Assembly (NCBI GenBank): GCA_902774205.1
Contig: CACYHL010000005.1
Span: forward strand, 1-34,956
DNA length: 34,956 nt
Direction: 5' to 3'
Source of the DNA: an uncultured Bacteroidota bacterium
GTDB taxonomy: Bacteria; Bacteroidota; Bacteroidia; Bacteroidales; WCHB1-69
The notes below the pieces were generated by a model. It saw only the letters and a program-made list of their open reading frames with translations. It made no database searches and was not told where the DNA came from. The position numbers and the translations under genes are program-made. Shown here in pieces: positions 3,121-25,738 of this stretch (position 1 is its first letter; each line of letters begins with the position of its first letter).

Positions 3121-3794
3121 CGATTTTTGTGTCATAGTCCCGACTTACAACAATGTCAAGACGCTTTCTGCGGTGATTGACAGCATTTTACCATACACTT
3201 CAAAGCTGATTGTGGTAAACGACGGTTCGACAGACGGAGCGGAACAGGGGAAAGTGGCACGCCATTTCGAAAGGACTTCGCGCCGCCGCCGCGAAGTTCA
3301 GATACGCAATCACGATGGACTCTGACGGACAGCACTTTGCGAGCGACATTCCGGAGTTTGTCGCGGCGGCGGCGGCGCACCCCGACACAGTTATTGTCGG
3401 AAGCCGCGTGCTGAAAACCAATAATGACGTTCCGCAGAAGAACATCGCCGCAAACAAGTTCTCAAATTTCTGGTTCCACGCCCAGACTTTCATCAATCTC
3501 CCCGACACACAATCGGGATTCCGGCTATACCCTGTCGAAAAAATCAACGCAATACACATTATCTCAGGACGTTACGAGGCAGAATTGGAGGTGCTTGTGC
3601 GGGCGGCATGGCGGTTCATTCCCGTCATGGCAATCCCCATTTCTGTCTATTATGCCCCTGAAAACGATCGAGTTTCCCACTTCCGCCCATTCACAGATTT
3701 CATGCGTATTTCGCTGCTGAACACATTCCTGACACTGGCGGCGGTTATTTGGTTTTATCCGCGTAAAATTTGGCGTAAAATCCACACCCTGTAG
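3110..3794 (+). pseudogene. Family 2 glycosyltransferase broken by an internal deletion and frameshift
   Basis: From ATG 3110 the frame encodes a GT-A start (FCVIVPTYNN and VVNDGSTDGA), then runs into an alien sequence and a TGA near 3325. The next frame resumes GT2 sequence upstream of that stop: NRGKWHAISKGLRAAAA from about 3243, the metal-binding MDSDGQH at 3315, and a C-terminal membrane-proximal segment ending at TAG 3792-3794. Family members have roughly 16-20 residues between DGSTDG and NxGK, and here they are missing. The lesion is thus a non-triplet deletion near 3237-3246 and not just one lost base. It may be a real loss of function or an assembly error. The TAG stop is supplied by a palindromic repeat. 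The last gene of the lolA/dehydratase trio is affected. Confidence 0.78.
3275..3297. repeat. GC-rich hairpin inside the broken GT2
   Basis: The arms ACTTCGCG (3275-3282) and CGCGAAGT (3290-3297) are perfectly complementary around a 7-base CCGCCGC loop. A second GCG-triplet tract at about 3362-3377, of opposite complementarity, lies 70 bases on. Such structure can cause polymerase skipping, and it sits 30-40 bases downstream of the frameshift in the GT2 gene. Confidence 0.6.
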
Positions 3795-3818
3795 AGACGT
3801 TCCATGGAACGTCACCAC
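3790..3818. repeat. Dispersed palindromic repeat, copy 1 (one arm degraded)
   Basis: The left part, TGTAGAGACGTTCCATGGAA, is identical to the two perfect copies at 18450 and 25709. The last bases of the right arm read CACCAC instead of CTCTAC. It lies between the convergent GT2 and yidD genes and supplies the TAG stop of the GT2 (3792-3794). Confidence 0.9.
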
Positions 3819-18449: not shown

Positions 18450-18479
18450 TGTAGAGACGTTCCATGGAACGTCTCTACA
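18450..18479. repeat. Dispersed palindromic repeat, copy 2 (perfect 30-bp palindrome)
   Basis: Each arm is TGTAGAGACGTTCCA, meeting at the central CCATGG. It lies between the convergent ung and GHKL ATPase genes. On the minus strand it provides the TAG stop of the ATPase gene (18475-18477), just as copy 1 provides the GT2 stop. It could act as a hairpin at both transcript ends, but there is no U-tract. Confidence 0.95.
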
Positions 18480-19005
18480 TTATATTTTCCTCTATCATCT
18501 CTTTCAGATAGGATATTATTTCAGGATTTTGGATTGAGACGCCATCCAAAGCCTCGTTAACCTCGTCTGTATCTAACACAAAATCAATATTTTGTTTTTT
18601 ATAATGGAATACGAATCTGATGTCGGGGTAAGAGGTCATCGTTAGCACCACCGCACCGGCGAGGTCACCCATCGGCTTGCGGTCGATGTGCGAAAGCCCG
18701 AAAGTAGCCGTGACAGTCGTGCCCTTGCCAAGTTGTGAACTGATATTGAAAGTGCCGCCCGTCAGCTCGGCGTTCTGTTTGAGCAGCGGCAACCCCAACC
18801 CTACTTTCCGTGTCGTGCGGGTTGTGACAAACGGGTCGGCGACACGCTGCGCCATCTCTTCGTCCATACCGCAGCCATCGTCCTTGAATTGCAACGTAAG
18901 TATATCTTTTTCAACATCTTCCTCCACAAGCAGCTCTATATTCTTCGCTTTTGCGCGTGTGGAGTTTTGCAGAATATCAATAATATGCATCGAAAGATCT
19001 TTCAT
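18475..19005 (-). CDS. GHKL ATP-binding protein (histidine-kinase-like, no H-box)
   Basis: The 176-residue protein has a complete GHKL ATPase fold: N box MHIIDILQNSTRAKA, G1 DDGCGMDEEM, G2 TRKVGLGLPLLKQNA and the final GKGTTVTATFG (residues about 4-113), followed by about 60 residues of alpha/beta tail. There is no phosphoacceptor His domain and no sensor, so it resembles anti-sigma-type kinases or the ATPase that precedes the NuoE-like subunit in [FeFe]-hydrogenase operons. It is the last gene of the six-gene minus-strand operon, 21 bases after the PHP gene, and its stop codon is made by the palindromic repeat. Confidence 0.87.
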   Translation of the reverse strand: MKDLSMHIIDILQNSTRAKAKNIELLVEEDVEKDILTLQFKDDGCGMDEEMAQRVADPFVTTRTTRKVGLGLPLLKQNAELTGGTFNISSQLGKGTTVTATFGLSHIDRKPMGDLAGAVVLTMTSYPDIRFVFHYKKQNIDFVLDTDEVNEALDGVSIQNPEIISYLKEMIEENIM

Positions 19006-19026
19006 GACATTTTCCGTTTTTAGTTT

Positions 19027-19767
19027 CTATTCCAATTTGACCGAGCGACCGCCCTCGCCGTGAAGCGCCATCGCAATCTCATCAAACGAGCGTGTCTCCA
19101 TTTCAAAAATGGCGGTTGAAGTGCCGACAAGATTCGGGAAATGCGCGTCCGAGCTCCGTATGAAACTCTTACCTTTGAGGTACGGGTGCTCCGCCAATAT
19201 CTTCTCCTTGTCACCATGCTTCGACAGCTCCACCGCGTCATAATCCAAATCGAACGGTATGAATCCGAGTTGCGATATGACACTGTTTTTCGGCTTGTCG
19301 ATATGCGCTGGAATGAAAAGCCCGCCAAGTGACTTCACTTTTTTGTTAATCTCCTCTATTGAGACATCAAGACCTGATATTAAAAGTTTTGGCTCCTCGT
19401 AAACGATATTGTCCTCCTCATCAATCTGCACTTGGTCTCCAAAGACATCAGGCGAATTGGGAATGTTCGGCAAATGCTCGTCCAAATAGGCTTGAAACTC
19501 ATCTAACAATTCGTGAGTCTTGAAAAAAGCAAGGCAGTGCGCCTCCTCTTTCGTTGTGACCTCGGCTCCACAAAGGACAAAAATATCCCGTTTTGAAGAG
19601 TAATGCTCCGCAAGTCTGCAATGCCGCGTGGCGTTGTGGTCGGTGATACCGATAATGTCAACGCCTTTTTGCAAAGCCAATTCGATTATATACTCCGGGG
19701 TCATATCCAAGTCGCCGCATGGTGAAAGCAGCGTATGGGTATGCAAATCGGCCTTAAATCGGAACAT
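19027..19767 (-). CDS. PHP domain phosphoesterase-like protein
   Basis: The protein has 246 residues from ATG 19767 (MFRFKADLHTHTLLSPCGDL); the frame extends upstream over the preceding gene, but that sequence is not PHP-like. Metal-binding motifs: DLHTHT (residues 7-12), the second motif GITDHN, an Glu in LCGAEVT, and a later HIDKPKN plus SSDAHF. PHP proteins hydrolyse phosphoesters, but the substrate here is unknown. It sits between a DRTGG protein (10 bases upstream) and a GHKL ATPase. The same four families occur together next to [FeFe]-hydrogenases in Clostridia, so a signalling or maturation role is likely. Confidence 0.87.
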   Translation of the reverse strand: MFRFKADLHTHTLLSPCGDLDMTPEYIIELALQKGVDIIGITDHNATRHCRLAEHYSSKRDIFVLCGAEVTTKEEAHCLAFFKTHELLDEFQAYLDEHLPNIPNSPDVFGDQVQIDEEDNIVYEEPKLLISGLDVSIEEINKKVKSLGGLFIPAHIDKPKNSVISQLGFIPFDLDYDAVELSKHGDKEKILAEHPYLKGKSFIRSSDAHFPNLVGTSTAIFEMETRSFDEIAMALHGEGGRSVKLE

Positions 19768-19777
19768 TATCTGTAAC

Positions 19778-20113
19778 TTACTGGTTAATATGCATATACA
19801 CCTTGCCAGCTGTTTCGAAAGTCTGGTCGGTAGTGCCCAACATCGGGATTTCCTCCTCAATAGCGTGCTGCAATGTGTCTTCATCGGGCTTGAAGCCTTT
19901 TACCAAGATAATGCATGACAGCTCTTTGAGAGAGCCAATGGCAGCCACATTCTTATGGGTCTGCAAAGTAATCCATGCCATACCTGATTTTGTCGAGCCC
20001 ATTACATCGCTCAGCAAATCAGAAACATAGCAACCGGTAATTTCCTTGTCAAGGTTATCAGCCCCACAGAAAACCGTCAAATTCATTTTTTCTACCAATT
20101 CTTTGACTGTCAT
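19778..20113 (-). CDS. DRTGG-domain protein, second copy
   Basis: The 111-residue protein is a single DRTGG-like domain: MTVKELVEKMNLTVFCGADNLDKEITGCYVSDLLSDVMG, then AWITLQTHKNVAAIGSLKELSCIILVKG and a C-terminal IPMLGTTDQTFETAGKVY. DRTGG domains are small nucleotide- or ligand-sensing modules related to the N-terminus of HPr kinase and a region of phosphotransacetylase. It is a paralogue of the protein encoded at 21953-22300, sharing the ASDLMSDV/VSDLLSDV block and the SYSMYKVAGILY/DQTFETAGKVY end. It starts 33 bases after the hydrogenase-like gene. Confidence 0.85.
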   Translation of the reverse strand: MTVKELVEKMNLTVFCGADNLDKEITGCYVSDLLSDVMGSTKSGMAWITLQTHKNVAAIGSLKELSCIILVKGFKPDEDTLQHAIEEEIPMLGTTDQTFETAGKVYMHINQ

Positions 20114-20146
20114 AATAAATCTATTAATCTATTAATATGTATGTTT

Positions 20147-21529
20147 TTACAATAAATCGTCAGGAATATTGTTAATATCCAACTTCTGCACGCCCCAAGT
20201 TTTCTTTGCGAGTTCGGCGCGCTCATCAGCTGATATGCCATTATTTTCATTCAGAAGGCGTTGCACGAAAATGCAGCTTTTCAATCCTATCACCCCATTC
20301 GTGACCGCGAAAGAGAACTCCTTACACGTCTGATAACCGCAGATACGGCAGTCAACTTGCGGCAGGAACTTATTGATTTTGAACGCTTTCTCCATCTTCT
20401 GCATCGCCACTGCCCTGTCGTTGTCGAGCTTGTCCATCGAGCGGGGCTGCACCTTACCAACCTTACTGTTATCCGCTAAATAATCAAAATTTTGGATTAG
20501 CTCATTAAATTTTTTGGACACACGCACGGGACTATGTGCGGCGCGCTGTTTCTGTCGCTCAACTGTAAGGAATCTGTTATTAGCGCATAAAATCCCCCCC
20601 GCACAGCTCTGGTCACAGGCGCGCACTTCAAGGAAGTCTATATTGTCAATATCCTCATTCTCAATCTTTTCCAAAAACGCCGACACATTATGCACCTCAT
20701 CGATGGCAAGGTTACGACCTTCTTTCAGCAATGCAATCTCGCCCCCACTAAGCGCCCACAACAGGTTTCTACGTGTCATCACATTACGATGGTCATTCTG
20801 TAAAGCCGGAAGTTCAGTACCCTGTTTTATAATCCGTAAAACCTTATTATACAGATAGTTCATATTTATGACACCTGTAACAGAAGATTTATCCTCCCCT
20901 ACCGGACTTTTGATTGCGGCAATTTTCGCGGGACACGGCGCGACATAAAATATGCCAATCTCCTCATTCAGAATCCCGCAATTCTCAACAAGATGCTTCT
21001 TGATATGCAATGAGGTCAAATCAAGAGGCGGTTTAACAAGCATGATATTATTCACGAGAGACGGGAACTTCACCTGAATCAGGCGGACAATCGCAGGACA
21101 AAACGAAGAAATCACGGGCTTGTCGCAATCCCCATTCATAAGTTTCTCATTCATAATATGTTTCAGCACCCCCACACTTTCTTCAACTTCATAAACGAAT
21201 TTGAAGCCGAGATAATGCAATGCTGCCAAGATAGAGTCATGTTCTATTTTTTCGGGGAACTGCGCGAAAAAAATAGTTGGGACGAGCGCGACAGGAGTCT
21301 TATAGTCATAAATCGTCTGGAAGTCGTCCTGCTCGACATAGATAGCCGAGACGGGGCAAGCGGAATAGCAGCGGCCGCAGTCGATGCATCTGTTAGGGTT
21401 CAGCACCGGCAGTCCGCCCTCGATATGGATTGCCGCAGTCGGACATATTTCGGTACAATGAGCGCAACCTATACAGAGGTCATACTGAAACTTAAGAGCA
21501 TGGTGAAAATTTTCCTGATGTGTATCCAT
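20147..21529 (-). CDS. [FeFe]-hydrogenase-like iron-sulfur protein (probable redox/H2 sensor)
   Basis: The 460-residue protein has three parts. First are two [4Fe-4S] motifs, CIGCAHCTEIC (Cys19-29) and CIDCGRCYSAC (Cys48-58). Next is a hydrogenase H domain (about 78-320) with the four H-cluster cysteines: Cys144 in SSFCP, Cys199 in APCPAK, Cys305 and Cys309 in VRACDQSCAGG. Last is a C-terminal FeS domain with Cys394, 397, 402 and 419 (CRICGYQTC...KSC). Against catalytic enzymes the proton-relay Cys is Phe143 (TSCCP to SSFCP), the Glu after PCxxK is Ala, and MAC is RAC. That suggests a sensory or slow enzyme, as in HsfB-type proteins. It abuts the RsbT-like gene with no gap. Confidence 0.88.
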   Translation of the reverse strand: MDTHQENFHHALKFQYDLCIGCAHCTEICPTAAIHIEGGLPVLNPNRCIDCGRCYSACPVSAIYVEQDDFQTIYDYKTPVALVPTIFFAQFPEKIEHDSILAALHYLGFKFVYEVEESVGVLKHIMNEKLMNGDCDKPVISSFCPAIVRLIQVKFPSLVNNIMLVKPPLDLTSLHIKKHLVENCGILNEEIGIFYVAPCPAKIAAIKSPVGEDKSSVTGVINMNYLYNKVLRIIKQGTELPALQNDHRNVMTRRNLLWALSGGEIALLKEGRNLAIDEVHNVSAFLEKIENEDIDNIDFLEVRACDQSCAGGILCANNRFLTVERQKQRAAHSPVRVSKKFNELIQNFDYLADNSKVGKVQPRSMDKLDNDRAVAMQKMEKAFKINKFLPQVDCRICGYQTCKEFSFAVTNGVIGLKSCIFVQRLLNENNGISADERAELAKKTWGVQKLDINNIPDDLL

Positions 21530-21940
21530 TTAAAAGTTATTAGTTATTTCCACGGTAGTACCCTTGCCGACCACGGAATTCACGTTAAGAATGTCTGAAT
21601 TTGCTTTTATATTTGGCAGTCCCATACCGGCGCCGAAGCCCATTTCGCGCACGGCGACCGAGGCTGTGGAGTAGCCCTCCTGCATGGCTTGGGAAATATC
21701 GGCGATACCGGGCCCCTCATCAGCGAGTTTAATATATATCTTGTCGGGCTGCAAATCCACTGTAATCACGCCACGATAGGCGTGCGCCACTATATTGACC
21801 TCAGCCTCGTATAGTGCGACCACGGTGCGTTTCACCACAGACGAGTCCACACCAAGCTGCCGCATCATTTTCTTCACGTTGCTTGACACGGAGCCGGCAT
21901 TTGTGAAATCGCCACCGTTCACCTGATATTCGAGTAACAT
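21530..21940 (-). CDS. RsbT-like GHKL ATP-binding protein (anti-sigma/switch kinase family)
   Basis: The 136-residue protein is a bare GHKL ATPase of the RsbW/RsbT type: N box ALYEAEVNIVAHAYRG, G1 DEGPGIADI, G2 MGFGAGMGLPNIK and the closing GKGTTVEI. The SVSSNVKKMMRQLGVDSSVVKR segment at residues 17-38 resembles the helix that precedes the N box in RsbT. These proteins phosphorylate STAS antagonists or bind sigma factors. No STAS protein or sigma factor is adjacent, so the partner is elsewhere or the role differs. The gene ends directly against the hydrogenase-like gene and starts 12 bases after the first DRTGG gene. Confidence 0.87.
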   Translation of the reverse strand: MLLEYQVNGGDFTNAGSVSSNVKKMMRQLGVDSSVVKRTVVALYEAEVNIVAHAYRGVITVDLQPDKIYIKLADEGPGIADISQAMQEGYSTASVAVREMGFGAGMGLPNIKANSDILNVNSVVGKGTTVEITNNF

Positions 21941-21952
21941 GTTTTTCCTTTC

Positions 21953-22300
21953 TTAATAAAGTGGTTGAATATTATTTGCGTATAGGATACCGGCGACCTT
22001 ATACATCGAATAGCTGGTTTCCATAAGCACCATGTTGTTGTCCTCCGCGAGTTCCTTCATCTCGTCAGTGACTTTCTTGCCACGGACAAAAAGGACATAG
22101 CGCACCTCGGCCATTTCGCATGTACGGATTGTCTGTGTGTTCGCGAGGCCAGTGATAAGCAGCAGTGATGACGCGTCTTTAATCGTCAGCACGTCGCTCA
22201 TCAAATCAGAAGCAAAAGCTCTTGTAACTTCCTCGTTTTCAGTATTGTTTCCTTCAATTAGTCTTCCGCCGACAAGGGCGATAATTTCATCAATCTTCAT
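21953..22300 (-). CDS. DRTGG-domain protein, first copy
   Basis: The 115-residue protein opens the hydrogenase-like operon. It has the DRTGG-type layout: MKIDEIIALVGGRLIEG, then VTRAFASDLMSDVLTIKDASSLLLITGLANTQTIRTC, AEVRYVLFVRGKKV and a final NNMVLMETSYSMYKVAGILY. It is similar to the 111-residue paralogue downstream, and two DRTGG proteins flanking an RsbT-like ATPase and an Fe-only hydrogenase-like protein is the arrangement known from clostridial hydrogenase operons. The ligand is unknown. A TATCTTTG box lies 30 bases upstream. Confidence 0.85.
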   Translation of the reverse strand: MKIDEIIALVGGRLIEGNNTENEEVTRAFASDLMSDVLTIKDASSLLLITGLANTQTIRTCEMAEVRYVLFVRGKKVTDEMKELAEDNNMVLMETSYSMYKVAGILYANNIQPLY

Positions 22301-22329: not shown

Positions 22330-22337
22330 CAAAGATA
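22330..22337 (-). promoter_or_regulatory. -7 promoter box for the hydrogenase-like operon
   Basis: The minus strand reads TATCTTTG followed by T, matching TANNTTTG, 30 bases before the first DRTGG start codon. A TTG with correct spacing was not found. Confidence 0.55.
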
Positions 22338-22422: not shown

Positions 22423-22449
22423 GCAAGCGCCGGTGGCACCGGCGCTTGC
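22423..22449 (-). terminator. Strong hairpin terminator after the small-gene operon
   Basis: The 13-base arms GCAAGCGCCGGTG and CACCGGCGCTTGC are perfectly complementary with a one-base centre (so 3-5 loop bases in practice). Reading the minus strand, it is followed by TGTTTTT. It lies 46 bases after the stop of the 33-residue gene. Confidence 0.72.
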
Positions 22450-23063: not shown

Positions 23064-25469
23064 TCAAATGCTGAAATCAGGTGATCGTCTTATATTAAAA
23101 TTCATAAACCAGTATTTTGATTTAAGCTGCTGGCACAATTCATTGTATTTGTCAAATAGCTTGGCTTCGCTGCAAGTAACCATATAATTATACATTGCAC
23201 ATGGTTCGTATGGCGTTAATTCAAGGACTTTCTCATAGCATTTAGTCGCTCGGTCGTATTGTCTTTCATTTGCATACATATCTGCCAACCTTCTCCAAAG
23301 AGAATCAAATTCAGGACATTTTTCAACCATTGATTCAAGTATTTTTATAGACTCCTGAATTTTTCCGTTTCTTTCCAATTTAAATGCTTTATTAATTTGT
23401 TGTAAATCATCATCATACGACTCTGTCGCTTCAAAAGGCAAGGGAATGTGACAATTTGCCGATTCTGGCAAAAGGAATGGAAGCCCTGTACGTAATTGCG
23501 CCAAATATAATATCATATTCGGGGCTTTTTTTTCACCAACTGATAATTGTGTGTTATTTGCCAAGCAAAACTCATTGAAGATTTTACAATAATTTTTCAA
23601 AGTTTCATCTTCTTCAATATGGTTTATTATTTTCCGCAAATCAGTATATTTTAAACTTAAGACTTCGTTTATCAAATCAAAATAGTTGATTTTCAATATC
23701 CCATCAATCCTTTGCATACATTTCTCGTAAGATGTGGATACAATCCATTTGACAATCTTTTTGTTTTTCGGATTTTGAATTGTAAAGTCATTGAGTTGTC
23801 TTGCCGCTTTTTTATCAACATAAATATAATCGTAATATGCTCCTTCAGACGTTGGTCTCAATTGTGTCCTTTTCAGTTGGATAAGCAGTATCATGTCATC
23901 GCTTTCCACATACACGTCAACATCGCCTTTGTCATTTTCACCTTTTATATTGGATTCCACTTTCCAATTATTATTTTTATTTTTGAAAAGTTCTACAACA
24001 TATTTTTCCATTTCGGTTGAACATTGTTTTTGAAGCTCTTTATTCGAAGGCAATTTTAATTTTAAATTTTCCAAAACGGCGCCTAAAAAAGCGTAAAACC
24101 AATGGTTCCTGCCTAAAAACATGGTAGGACATACCAGCAGGTCGCCAAACTTCAGAAATGGCTTGCGATATACATCAAAACAAGTTTGTCCCCAATGAAA
24201 TGTTTTTTCATCAAATTTATTGCCAGTAAATGTGTACGAAAAGATGTCAATAAACGTTTGAAAAGTCTCTTTAGAAGCACAAGTTCCCTCTTTTACGAAA
24301 GAGTTGTACATCCGATAATATTCATCTGTCGTTTCAATTGTAAAAGGAAGTATTTCACATCCTTCGCAAACAGATTTACGCAACAAATACCACATCTTCT
24401 CAAACCAACTTTTACCGTCGATTTTCTCAAGATTATTTTCATATCTATATGTTTTGTTTGACGAAATACCGCCAAGAGCATCCAATATTTGTCTGTGGGG
24501 AATATCTTTCCCTTTGAATATAAAATTTGGCACCTTTAAATCATCCATTAAGCAGTATGTCGCAACGCTTTCAATGGTCGCCTCTTTATTGAAATCATAC
24601 TCTTCACCAAGACCTGCTATTTTCAATTCGCCTGAAGCAATTTGGCGTTCAATTAAATTACGGGCAATTTGGTTATAGTTAAGTTCATTCATGGCATATC
24701 TTGCCCCGTTCAGTTTCCAAGTATAGAAATCAATTGGTGTTTGGTATAAGAACAAACAGTTATGCACTTCTTTGGGAGTTATGGTGGTATCAAAACAATA
24801 CAAGTCAATAATATCATTCCTGAAACGAATATAGTCCATGACTTTCGGGAAAAGAGTCTGGCTCTTATACCATTCCGCATGTTTGGGATAGATTTTTCCA
24901 AAATATTGCACAAAATGCACTACCATTTTTTCTCTACCATGAAATTGCAATGTCCTGAATCTTTCCTCTCTCAATAACTTTTCAATAAACAATCCGTAAA
25001 ATTTCCCAAGATACTCCATAGTGCTGTCTCTCATGCTCTCGTTTTCACTACGATAGCACTCCATCCAACATATAACATCAAAAAAAGATTTATAGAATGC
25101 CTCCTCAGTATCAGTCGGCAAATTCTTCAGATAAGTTTTGAATTCCCCATCAATTTCTTTTTGTAAATTTTCCTCATAGGTATAAATGCTTTTCCATACC
25201 TTTTTATGTATGGTTAAATCATCTATCAACGGAATTTGTTGAAGGAAATCGTGCCTGTCTGCTCTCAAGAAATATTTTGACACACGAACGGCCTGCACGA
25301 AAGCATCAGGCTGTAATTCTGCCACTTTTTTCTCAAAAGCCCCGTTAAATGAGCCACAACTTTTAAAATGCTTGAGAATATCCTCAAATTTCTGAGGGAA
25401 TGAAAGACCTTTAATGGAGCAAATGCACTGCTCTCCTGTGTGATTTTTGCTTAAATACTTATTTTCCAT
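23064..25469 (-). CDS. Large hypothetical protein with PD-(D/E)xK-like nuclease signature and C-terminal TPRs
   Basis: The protein has 801 residues, no signal peptide and no membrane segment. Residues 1-470 are helical and unrecognised. Residues 483-535 look like a restriction-like fold: EMEKYVVELFKN (Glu488 or Glu493), GDVDVYV (Asp516, Asp518) and LLIQLKRT (Gln531-x-Lys533), i.e. a D-x(n)-QxK active site as in Mrr-like enzymes. Residues 688-757 form two TPR-like units (KIQESIKILESMVEKCP, RQYDRATKCYEKVLELTP). The gene is clearly AT-richer than its neighbours; one sampled 60-base line near 23.95 kb has 14 G+C, against 33 in a line of the kor operon. It is probably horizontally acquired; a defence role is plausible but unproven. 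Confidence 0.72.
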   Translation of the reverse strand: MENKYLSKNHTGEQCICSIKGLSFPQKFEDILKHFKSCGSFNGAFEKKVAELQPDAFVQAVRVSKYFLRADRHDFLQQIPLIDDLTIHKKVWKSIYTYEENLQKEIDGEFKTYLKNLPTDTEEAFYKSFFDVICWMECYRSENESMRDSTMEYLGKFYGLFIEKLLREERFRTLQFHGREKMVVHFVQYFGKIYPKHAEWYKSQTLFPKVMDYIRFRNDIIDLYCFDTTITPKEVHNCLFLYQTPIDFYTWKLNGARYAMNELNYNQIARNLIERQIASGELKIAGLGEEYDFNKEATIESVATYCLMDDLKVPNFIFKGKDIPHRQILDALGGISSNKTYRYENNLEKIDGKSWFEKMWYLLRKSVCEGCEILPFTIETTDEYYRMYNSFVKEGTCASKETFQTFIDIFSYTFTGNKFDEKTFHWGQTCFDVYRKPFLKFGDLLVCPTMFLGRNHWFYAFLGAVLENLKLKLPSNKELQKQCSTEMEKYVVELFKNKNNNWKVESNIKGENDKGDVDVYVESDDMILLIQLKRTQLRPTSEGAYYDYIYVDKKAARQLNDFTIQNPKNKKIVKWIVSTSYEKCMQRIDGILKINYFDLINEVLSLKYTDLRKIINHIEEDETLKNYCKIFNEFCLANNTQLSVGEKKAPNMILYLAQLRTGLPFLLPESANCHIPLPFEATESYDDDLQQINKAFKLERNGKIQESIKILESMVEKCPEFDSLWRRLADMYANERQYDRATKCYEKVLELTPYEPCAMYNYMVTCSEAKLFDKYNELCQQLKSKYWFMNFNIRRSPDFSI

Positions 25470-25708: not shown

Positions 25709-25738
25709 TGTAGAGACGTTCCATGGAACGTCTCTACA
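25709..25738. repeat. Dispersed palindromic repeat, copy 3 (perfect 30-bp palindrome)
   Basis: It is identical base for base to copy 2 at 18450-18479. Unlike the other two copies it does not abut a gene, lying between the AT-rich island and the terminator of the oxidoreductase operon. Confidence 0.95.

Follow-up and report, generated by a model that had tools for sequence, protein, structure and literature searches.

Six co-directed genes of the window (the whole stretch of 34,956 nucleotides that was analysed) are best explained as the regulatory half of a ten-gene electron-bifurcating [FeFe]-hydrogenase operon, detached from a catalytic half (fd-hydB-hydA-hydC) that lies elsewhere in the same genome. 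The hydrogenase-like product HydS would be the Bacteroidales version of the putative sensors of group D, its signal passing through a GHKL ATPase relay to a post-translational control of HydABC; the probability assigned to this reading as a whole is about 0.6. Groups C and D of the sensory [FeFe]-hydrogenases are labelled putative because the destination of their signal is not known. The lasting interest of the present system lies in a cassette that is unlinked yet co-retained and in a rebuilt metal pocket. Most of the named close relatives come from the rumen or the gut, which gives the regulator ecological weight. In these habitats H2 pressure governs fermentation and methane.

Organization of the six-gene operon

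The operon runs from 22300 to 18475 on the minus strand, with intergenic gaps of 12, 0, 33, 10 and 21 bp in the 5' to 3' direction. Pfam identifies its products, in this order, as a DRTGG protein (DRTGG-A), a SpoIIAB-like GHKL ATPase (GHKL-A), the hydrogenase-like protein HydS, a second DRTGG protein (DRTGG-B), a PHP phosphoesterase and a second GHKL ATPase (GHKL-B). The original prediction of six co-directed and almost gapless genes from these families is borne out by the ORF coordinates and by Pfam, the first DRTGG domain being sub-threshold (Table 1). The identical gene order recurs in many independent genomes. Comparison with the sister species shows purifying selection on each of the six genes (dN/dS 0.015–0.056), to a degree similar to ung.

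Table 1. Coordinates and assignments of the operon genes and of the elements that border them
Feature	Coordinates	Strand	Length	Assignment
Terminator-like hairpin with T run	22423..22449	-		Upstream of the operon
TATCTTTG box	22330..22337	-		Putative Bacteroidota-type -7 element (TAnnTTTG), preceding the first gene
DRTGG-domain protein A	21953..22300	-	115 aa	First gene; Pfam DRTGG, 21.6 bits, below the cut-off of 25.2
GHKL ATPase A	21530..21940	-	136 aa	SpoIIAB/RsbW-like; Pfam HATPase_c_2, 45.6 bits
HydS	20147..21529	-	460 aa	Group D (M2e)-like putative sensory [FeFe]-hydrogenase; Pfam, alignments, tree and AlphaFold model
DRTGG-domain protein B	19778..20113	-	111 aa	Pfam DRTGG, 30 bits, above the cut-off
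PHP-family metal-dependent phosphoesterase	19027..19767	-	246 aa	Pfam PHP and PHP_C, above the cut-off
GHKL ATPase B	18475..19005	-	176 aa	Pfam HATPase_c, 60.7 bits
Perfect palindrome	18451..18478		28 bp	Between convergent ghklB and ung; holds the ghklB stop TAG

Conserved motifs are consistent with these assignments. DRTGG-A has a DLMSDVL core that is conserved across 74 relatives. The best NCBIfam match of GHKL-A is to anti-sigma F factor, with a score under the cut-off of that family, and its nearest solved structures are those of SpoIIAB; residues E45, N49, D74xG76xG78 and G101-L108 are conserved in 75 relatives. GHKL-B consists of a histidine-kinase-type ATP-binding domain without the dimerisation/phosphoacceptor domain and features conserved N14, D42xG44xG46, G69xG71 and G95T96. 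The ATP-binding boxes are intact in both ATPases. The candidate metal ligands of the PHP enzyme (D46, H48, H50, D82, H83, E108, H116, H194, D246 and H248, numbered on the 285-aa ORF) are at least 93% conserved among 63 relatives. Note that the start of this longer ORF, at 19884, lies inside the previous gene and that the extension is absent from the relatives. No DNA-binding or receiver domain was matched by Pfam in the six products, as had been anticipated, and no STAS or PP2C gene was identified by Pfam inside the operon.

Several elements at the borders of the operon were delimited. The TATCTTTG box is conserved in the sister species, where it reads TATTTTTG, and belongs to a conserved block ACTTTG(G/A)ATTTTATTTTATAT(C/T)TTTG; the sequence farther upstream is not conserved. 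The spacing from the box to the upstream TTTG is below that of the Bacteroides consensus, and the box is therefore retained as a putative element only. The hairpin that precedes it may separate the operon from the upstream genes, among which positions 23064-25469 encode a protein of 801 aa to which Pfam assigns only TPR repeats, at the carboxyl terminus. At the opposite end, the proposal that a palindrome makes the stop codon of ghklB proved accurate for a perfect 28-mer, a candidate bidirectional terminator. This palindrome is a dispersed repeat with three copies in the window (3791-3818, 18451-18478 and 25710-25737), two exact and one with 2 mismatches, against 0 expected; all are near gene ends. 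No exact match was found among the 150 loci compared. It resembles a repeat dispersed at species level, with a possible role in termination. The upstream hairpin, the TATCTTTG box and the closing palindrome together make co-transcription of the six genes plausible. An assembly break at the operon end is ruled out: the contig runs on through ung, the DUF5683 gene and parB, and the sister genome has ghklB joined to ung as here (L003/L136).

HydS and its metal pocket

HydS matches in Pfam two Fer4 domains, Fe_hyd_lg_C (69 bits, cut-off 22) and FeS. The amino terminus carries two [4Fe-4S] motifs (C19/22/25/29 and C48/51/54/58), the four cysteines that hold the cubane of the H-cluster are all kept (C144, C199, C305 and C309), and the carboxyl terminus, which is the FeS domain in Pfam, has the arrangement Cx2Cx4Cx16C (C394, C397, C402 and C419). 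These sixteen cysteines are invariant in the alignment of 91 Bacteroidales and 22 clostridial relatives, the set to which the residue counts below refer and from which loci L181 and L184 were left out. By sequence HydS would not be a catalytically dead protein, all cluster-ligand cysteines being kept. The original prediction of an [FeFe]-hydrogenase-like protein with three iron-sulfur regions was right as to the families, which Pfam confirms, but missed the full set of H-cluster cysteines; their retention points to a putative H2-sensing hydrogenase rather than to a generic iron-sulfur protein.

HydS groups with the clostridial "group D" (M2e, HydS) putative sensory [FeFe]-hydrogenases. In a maximum-likelihood tree the Bacteroidales proteins form a single clade (100/100) placed within the clostridial HydS, and a 100/100 branch parts the window HydS and clostridial HydS from groups A, B and C; the tree was built without TamHydS itself, the group D protein of Thermoanaerobacter mathranii, so that membership of group D rests on motifs together with the tree. 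Residues S261, E264, D277 and E301 correspond, with identical spacing, to TamHydS S249, E252, D265 and E289, the proposed group D proton path (PMC10407848). The proton-path glutamates E264 and E301 as well as D277 are invariant in 91/91 Bacteroidales proteins, and K202 is found in 87/91. Assignment to group C (M2f) is ruled out by the separate clade in the tree and by the lack of a C-terminal PAS; Pfam detects no PAS domain in the 460 residues. The AlphaFold model has a mean pLDDT of 87 and its best PDB matches are [FeFe]-hydrogenases.

The pocket of the diiron site has undergone a change specific to the Bacteroidales. At CpI C299 all 91 Bacteroidales HydS have Phe or Tyr (Phe143 in the window) and 20 of 22 Clostridia have Ala, that is, the residue is replaced in the window HydS but not by the Ala usual in group D. 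CpI M497 corresponds to Arg in 91/91 (Arg303 in the window) and mostly to Leu in Clostridia. In CpI these two residues form part of the wall of the diiron pocket. Their occupation by Phe/Tyr and Arg throughout the 91 proteins is new here. The L3 loop reads RAC-D-x-S-C and not xACxGGC, the residues between the last two ligands being mostly D-x-S versus x-G-G. At the position of CpI M353 the window protein has Ala and not the Ser/Thr found in 72/91 Bacteroidales HydS; replacement of this Met by Ser/Thr is described as well conserved in group D, and is not stated as a requirement. CpI K358, the lysine contacting a cyanide ligand in CpI, is Ser in the HydS of four related genomes only (L008, L011, L015 and L016).

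Such a pocket could belong to a protein devoid of the [2Fe] subsite, a redox sensor with four [4Fe-4S] clusters comparable to Nar1-type hydrogenase relatives, in which case the cassette would sense intracellular redox state and not H2. The strict Phe/Tyr and Arg substitutions, the altered L3 loop and the change of K358 to Ser in four genomes are consistent with this proposal, the bulky and charged side chains being expected to face the diiron pocket. However, the invariance of the four cubane ligands and of E264, E301 and D277, with the near invariance of K202, would be difficult to account for in the absence of H-cluster chemistry. Furthermore, three genomes with no [FeFe]-hydrogenase homologue found other than HydS (G120, G148 and G153) keep HydG, and TamHydS works despite altered C299, M353 and M497 positions (PMC8163306). 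A cluster-only redox sensor is thus a possible but doubtful explanation, and a retuned pocket is more likely than a lost diiron site. We also consider, tentatively, that the Bacteroidales clade has a rebuilt pocket whose diiron site is either gone or non-turnover, HydS being a pure signal receiver that would control a distant HydABC by post-translational modification via the two GHKL ATPases. The strictness of both substitutions provides a direct handle on the question of whether sensing needs H2 binding at a complete H-cluster.

The detached hydrogenase and break-up of the ten-gene operon

A bifurcating hydrogenase is not part of the window operon, as originally predicted for this locus. The prediction that the regulatory half stands alone fails for the genome, in which a search for hydABC and hydEFG uncovered fd, hydB, hydA and a truncated hydC on a contig of 4,764 bp (C139) and the maturases HydG, HydF and HydE on contigs C145, C11 and C13, respectively, each above its curated cut-off. 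Loss of HydABC from the genome is thereby ruled out. The suggestion of a distant target is the natural reading of a genome where the regulatory half is set apart from the catalytic half. HydA and HydB evolve far more slowly than the regulators between genera: the comparison of C139 (L096) with relative G014 (L102) gives a dN of ~0.04 against 0.13–0.27 for the six genes.

The gene order in deeper Bacteroidales and in Clostridia is drtggA-ghklA-hydS-drtggB-php-ghklB-fd-hydB-hydA without interruption. The small ferredoxin-like gene fd directly follows ghklB in these intact operons, and hydC is found either after hydA or between php and ghklB. HydS is present in 138 of 291 genomes sampled from the class of the Clostridia genome G093. 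Other layouts occur closer to the window. The six genes are adjacent to and divergent from fd-hydB-hydA-hydC in G138, and divergent at a distance of ~5 kb in G014. They are kept together beside ung with HydABC elsewhere in the window genome and its sister G001. In genus g17 drtggA-ghklA-hydS is beside hydBA while drtggB-php-ghklB is elsewhere, and in the genomes read of genus g8 all three modules are apart. Relative G159, which has no HydS, encodes directly downstream of hydA a group-C-like sensory hydrogenase whose carboxyl terminus reads as a histidine kinase (L141, 793-2778).

The prediction that the same families flank HydC, HydB and HydA in other anaerobes is confirmed by the clostridial and deeper Bacteroidales loci and by the literature. 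HydABC adjoins orthologous operons in Clostridia, in deeper Bacteroidales and in some family members but not in all close relatives, and no assembly break accounts for the separation in the window. The ten-gene operon, which close relatives carry intact, divergent or variously split, has been rearranged in several ways; the solitary arrangement is one of these and no new kind of system. The ten-gene arrangement as such is already known and visible in the literature, while no description of the six-gene cassette as one unit was found in the literature searched, nor anything related that links DRTGG proteins to hydrogenases.

The modules are co-retained in spite of this break-up. Among 104 family genomes, 73 encode both HydS and PHP, 20 neither, and 6 and 5 a single one of them; at a completeness of at least 90% the numbers are 45, 10, and 1 and 2. 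In 52 of the 73 genomes, as counted from coordinates, the genes for HydS and PHP lie on separate contigs or, in one genome, ~26 kb apart; some of these contigs are short, and not every case proves separation. HydS and the matching HydB type are, at the same completeness, both present in 43 genomes, both absent in 7 and single in 3 and 5; these counts ignore kinship, so shared ancestry contributes to them, and most of the genomes are metagenome-assembled. Co-retention of modules that are often unlinked argues that the six proteins are one functional unit with HydABC as the likeliest target.

The pairing of HydS with HydABC is not absolute. G120, G148 and G153 (93–98% complete) have HydS, PHP and HydG, and neither HydA nor HydB was detected in them, either because a contig is missing or because these are true sensor-only genomes; conversely, five genomes at least 90% complete have the HydB type without HydS. 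The absence of HydA in ~12 HydS-bearing family genomes was not taken as proof of an orphan system, because hydAB is often found on short contigs or at contig edges (e.g., G008 C75 and C139 of the window genome), but G120, G148 and G153 may be such a case.

Co-occurrence of HydS with HydB, together with a cassette that encodes no transcription output, would also fit a system for HydABC assembly, insertion or repair in which the ATPases are chaperones and no signalling takes place. This role is unlikely: canonical HydE, HydF and HydG are already provided by the genome, some HydA-bearing genomes do without HydS (e.g., G011, G010 and G035), and a hydrogenase-like subunit with a SpoIIAB-like ATPase would be unexpected for a chaperone. 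It nevertheless stands with the pure redox sensor as a serious rival of the detached regulatory half.

Proposed signalling path and closest known systems

The likely target of the cassette is the cell's own HydABC. HydS would report H2 or redox state through its clusters and the two GHKL ATPases would relay this signal by ATP-dependent binding or phosphorylation. The DRTGG proteins may be adaptors or substrates, the PHP enzyme may be the opposing phosphoesterase that reverses the step, and the output would be a post-translational control of HydABC and not of transcription.

A transcriptional output would be expected if the GHKL proteins acted on STAS and PP2C proteins encoded elsewhere, as in classical partner switching. 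GHKL-A does resemble SpoIIAB, and the genome has STAS proteins, whose search had been proposed, next to SpoIIE-like phosphatases on contigs C157 and C167 (L114 and L113). Yet these two partner-switching-type modules, which hold two of the STAS genes found, are unlinked to the operon and come with their own GHKL protein or domain, which is separate in one of them and fused to the phosphatase in the other; the STAS-based route is for this reason unlikely. In addition, neither gene type is found in the window operon, the homology maps of relatives, which searched the operon's own families only, show no STAS/PP2C slot, and GHKL-B has an ATP-binding domain of histidine-kinase type. Partner switching is accordingly rated as improbable. 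A functionless leftover of a decayed hydrogenase operon, for which only the separation from hydABC would speak, is refuted by the purifying selection (dN/dS 0.015–0.056) and the intact catalytic motifs, in a genome where HydABC is present.

The known systems resemble different parts of the cassette. GHKL-A shares its ATP-binding boxes with the SpoIIAB/RsbW anti-sigma kinases, whose STAS antagonist, PP2C phosphatase and sigma factor have no counterpart in the window operon. In the hydC-E-D-B-A1 operon of Acetobacterium woodii (PMC3315566), HydE is ATP-binding-domain-like and occupies the slot of GHKL-B, and hydD that of fd; this operon is described as having five genes and is without HydS, DRTGG and PHP. 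PMC3561251 places group D M2e genes upstream of trimeric bifurcating hydrogenases, from which kinase genes separate them. In Table 6 of that source the M2e genes of Caldicellulosiruptor, Thermoanaerobacter and Clostridium are about five loci away from HydABC (e.g., Athe_1292 versus Athe_1297-1299) and are linked to it, unlike that of the window.

For HydS itself the closest system is TamHydS (PMC8163306, PMC10407848, PMC13104023), which has the same layout of two N-terminal [4Fe-4S] motifs, four cubane cysteines and Cx2Cx4Cx16C without PAS. At the positions of CpI C299, M353 and M497 the window protein has Phe, Ala and Arg where TamHydS has Ala137, Ser and Leu, respectively; it also differs in its L3 loop, RACDQSC, and in having Ser for D403. 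TamHydS is flanked by an AraC regulator, while the window HydS lacks HydABC on its operon. For the whole cassette the comparison is with Halsa_1862-1871 of Halanaerobium hydrogeniformans (PMC4237134), ten genes in the order of the clostridial loci when the annotations of that paper are equated with the families defined here. Unlike the window operon, it is an intact operon with HydABC in a Bacillota-type host.
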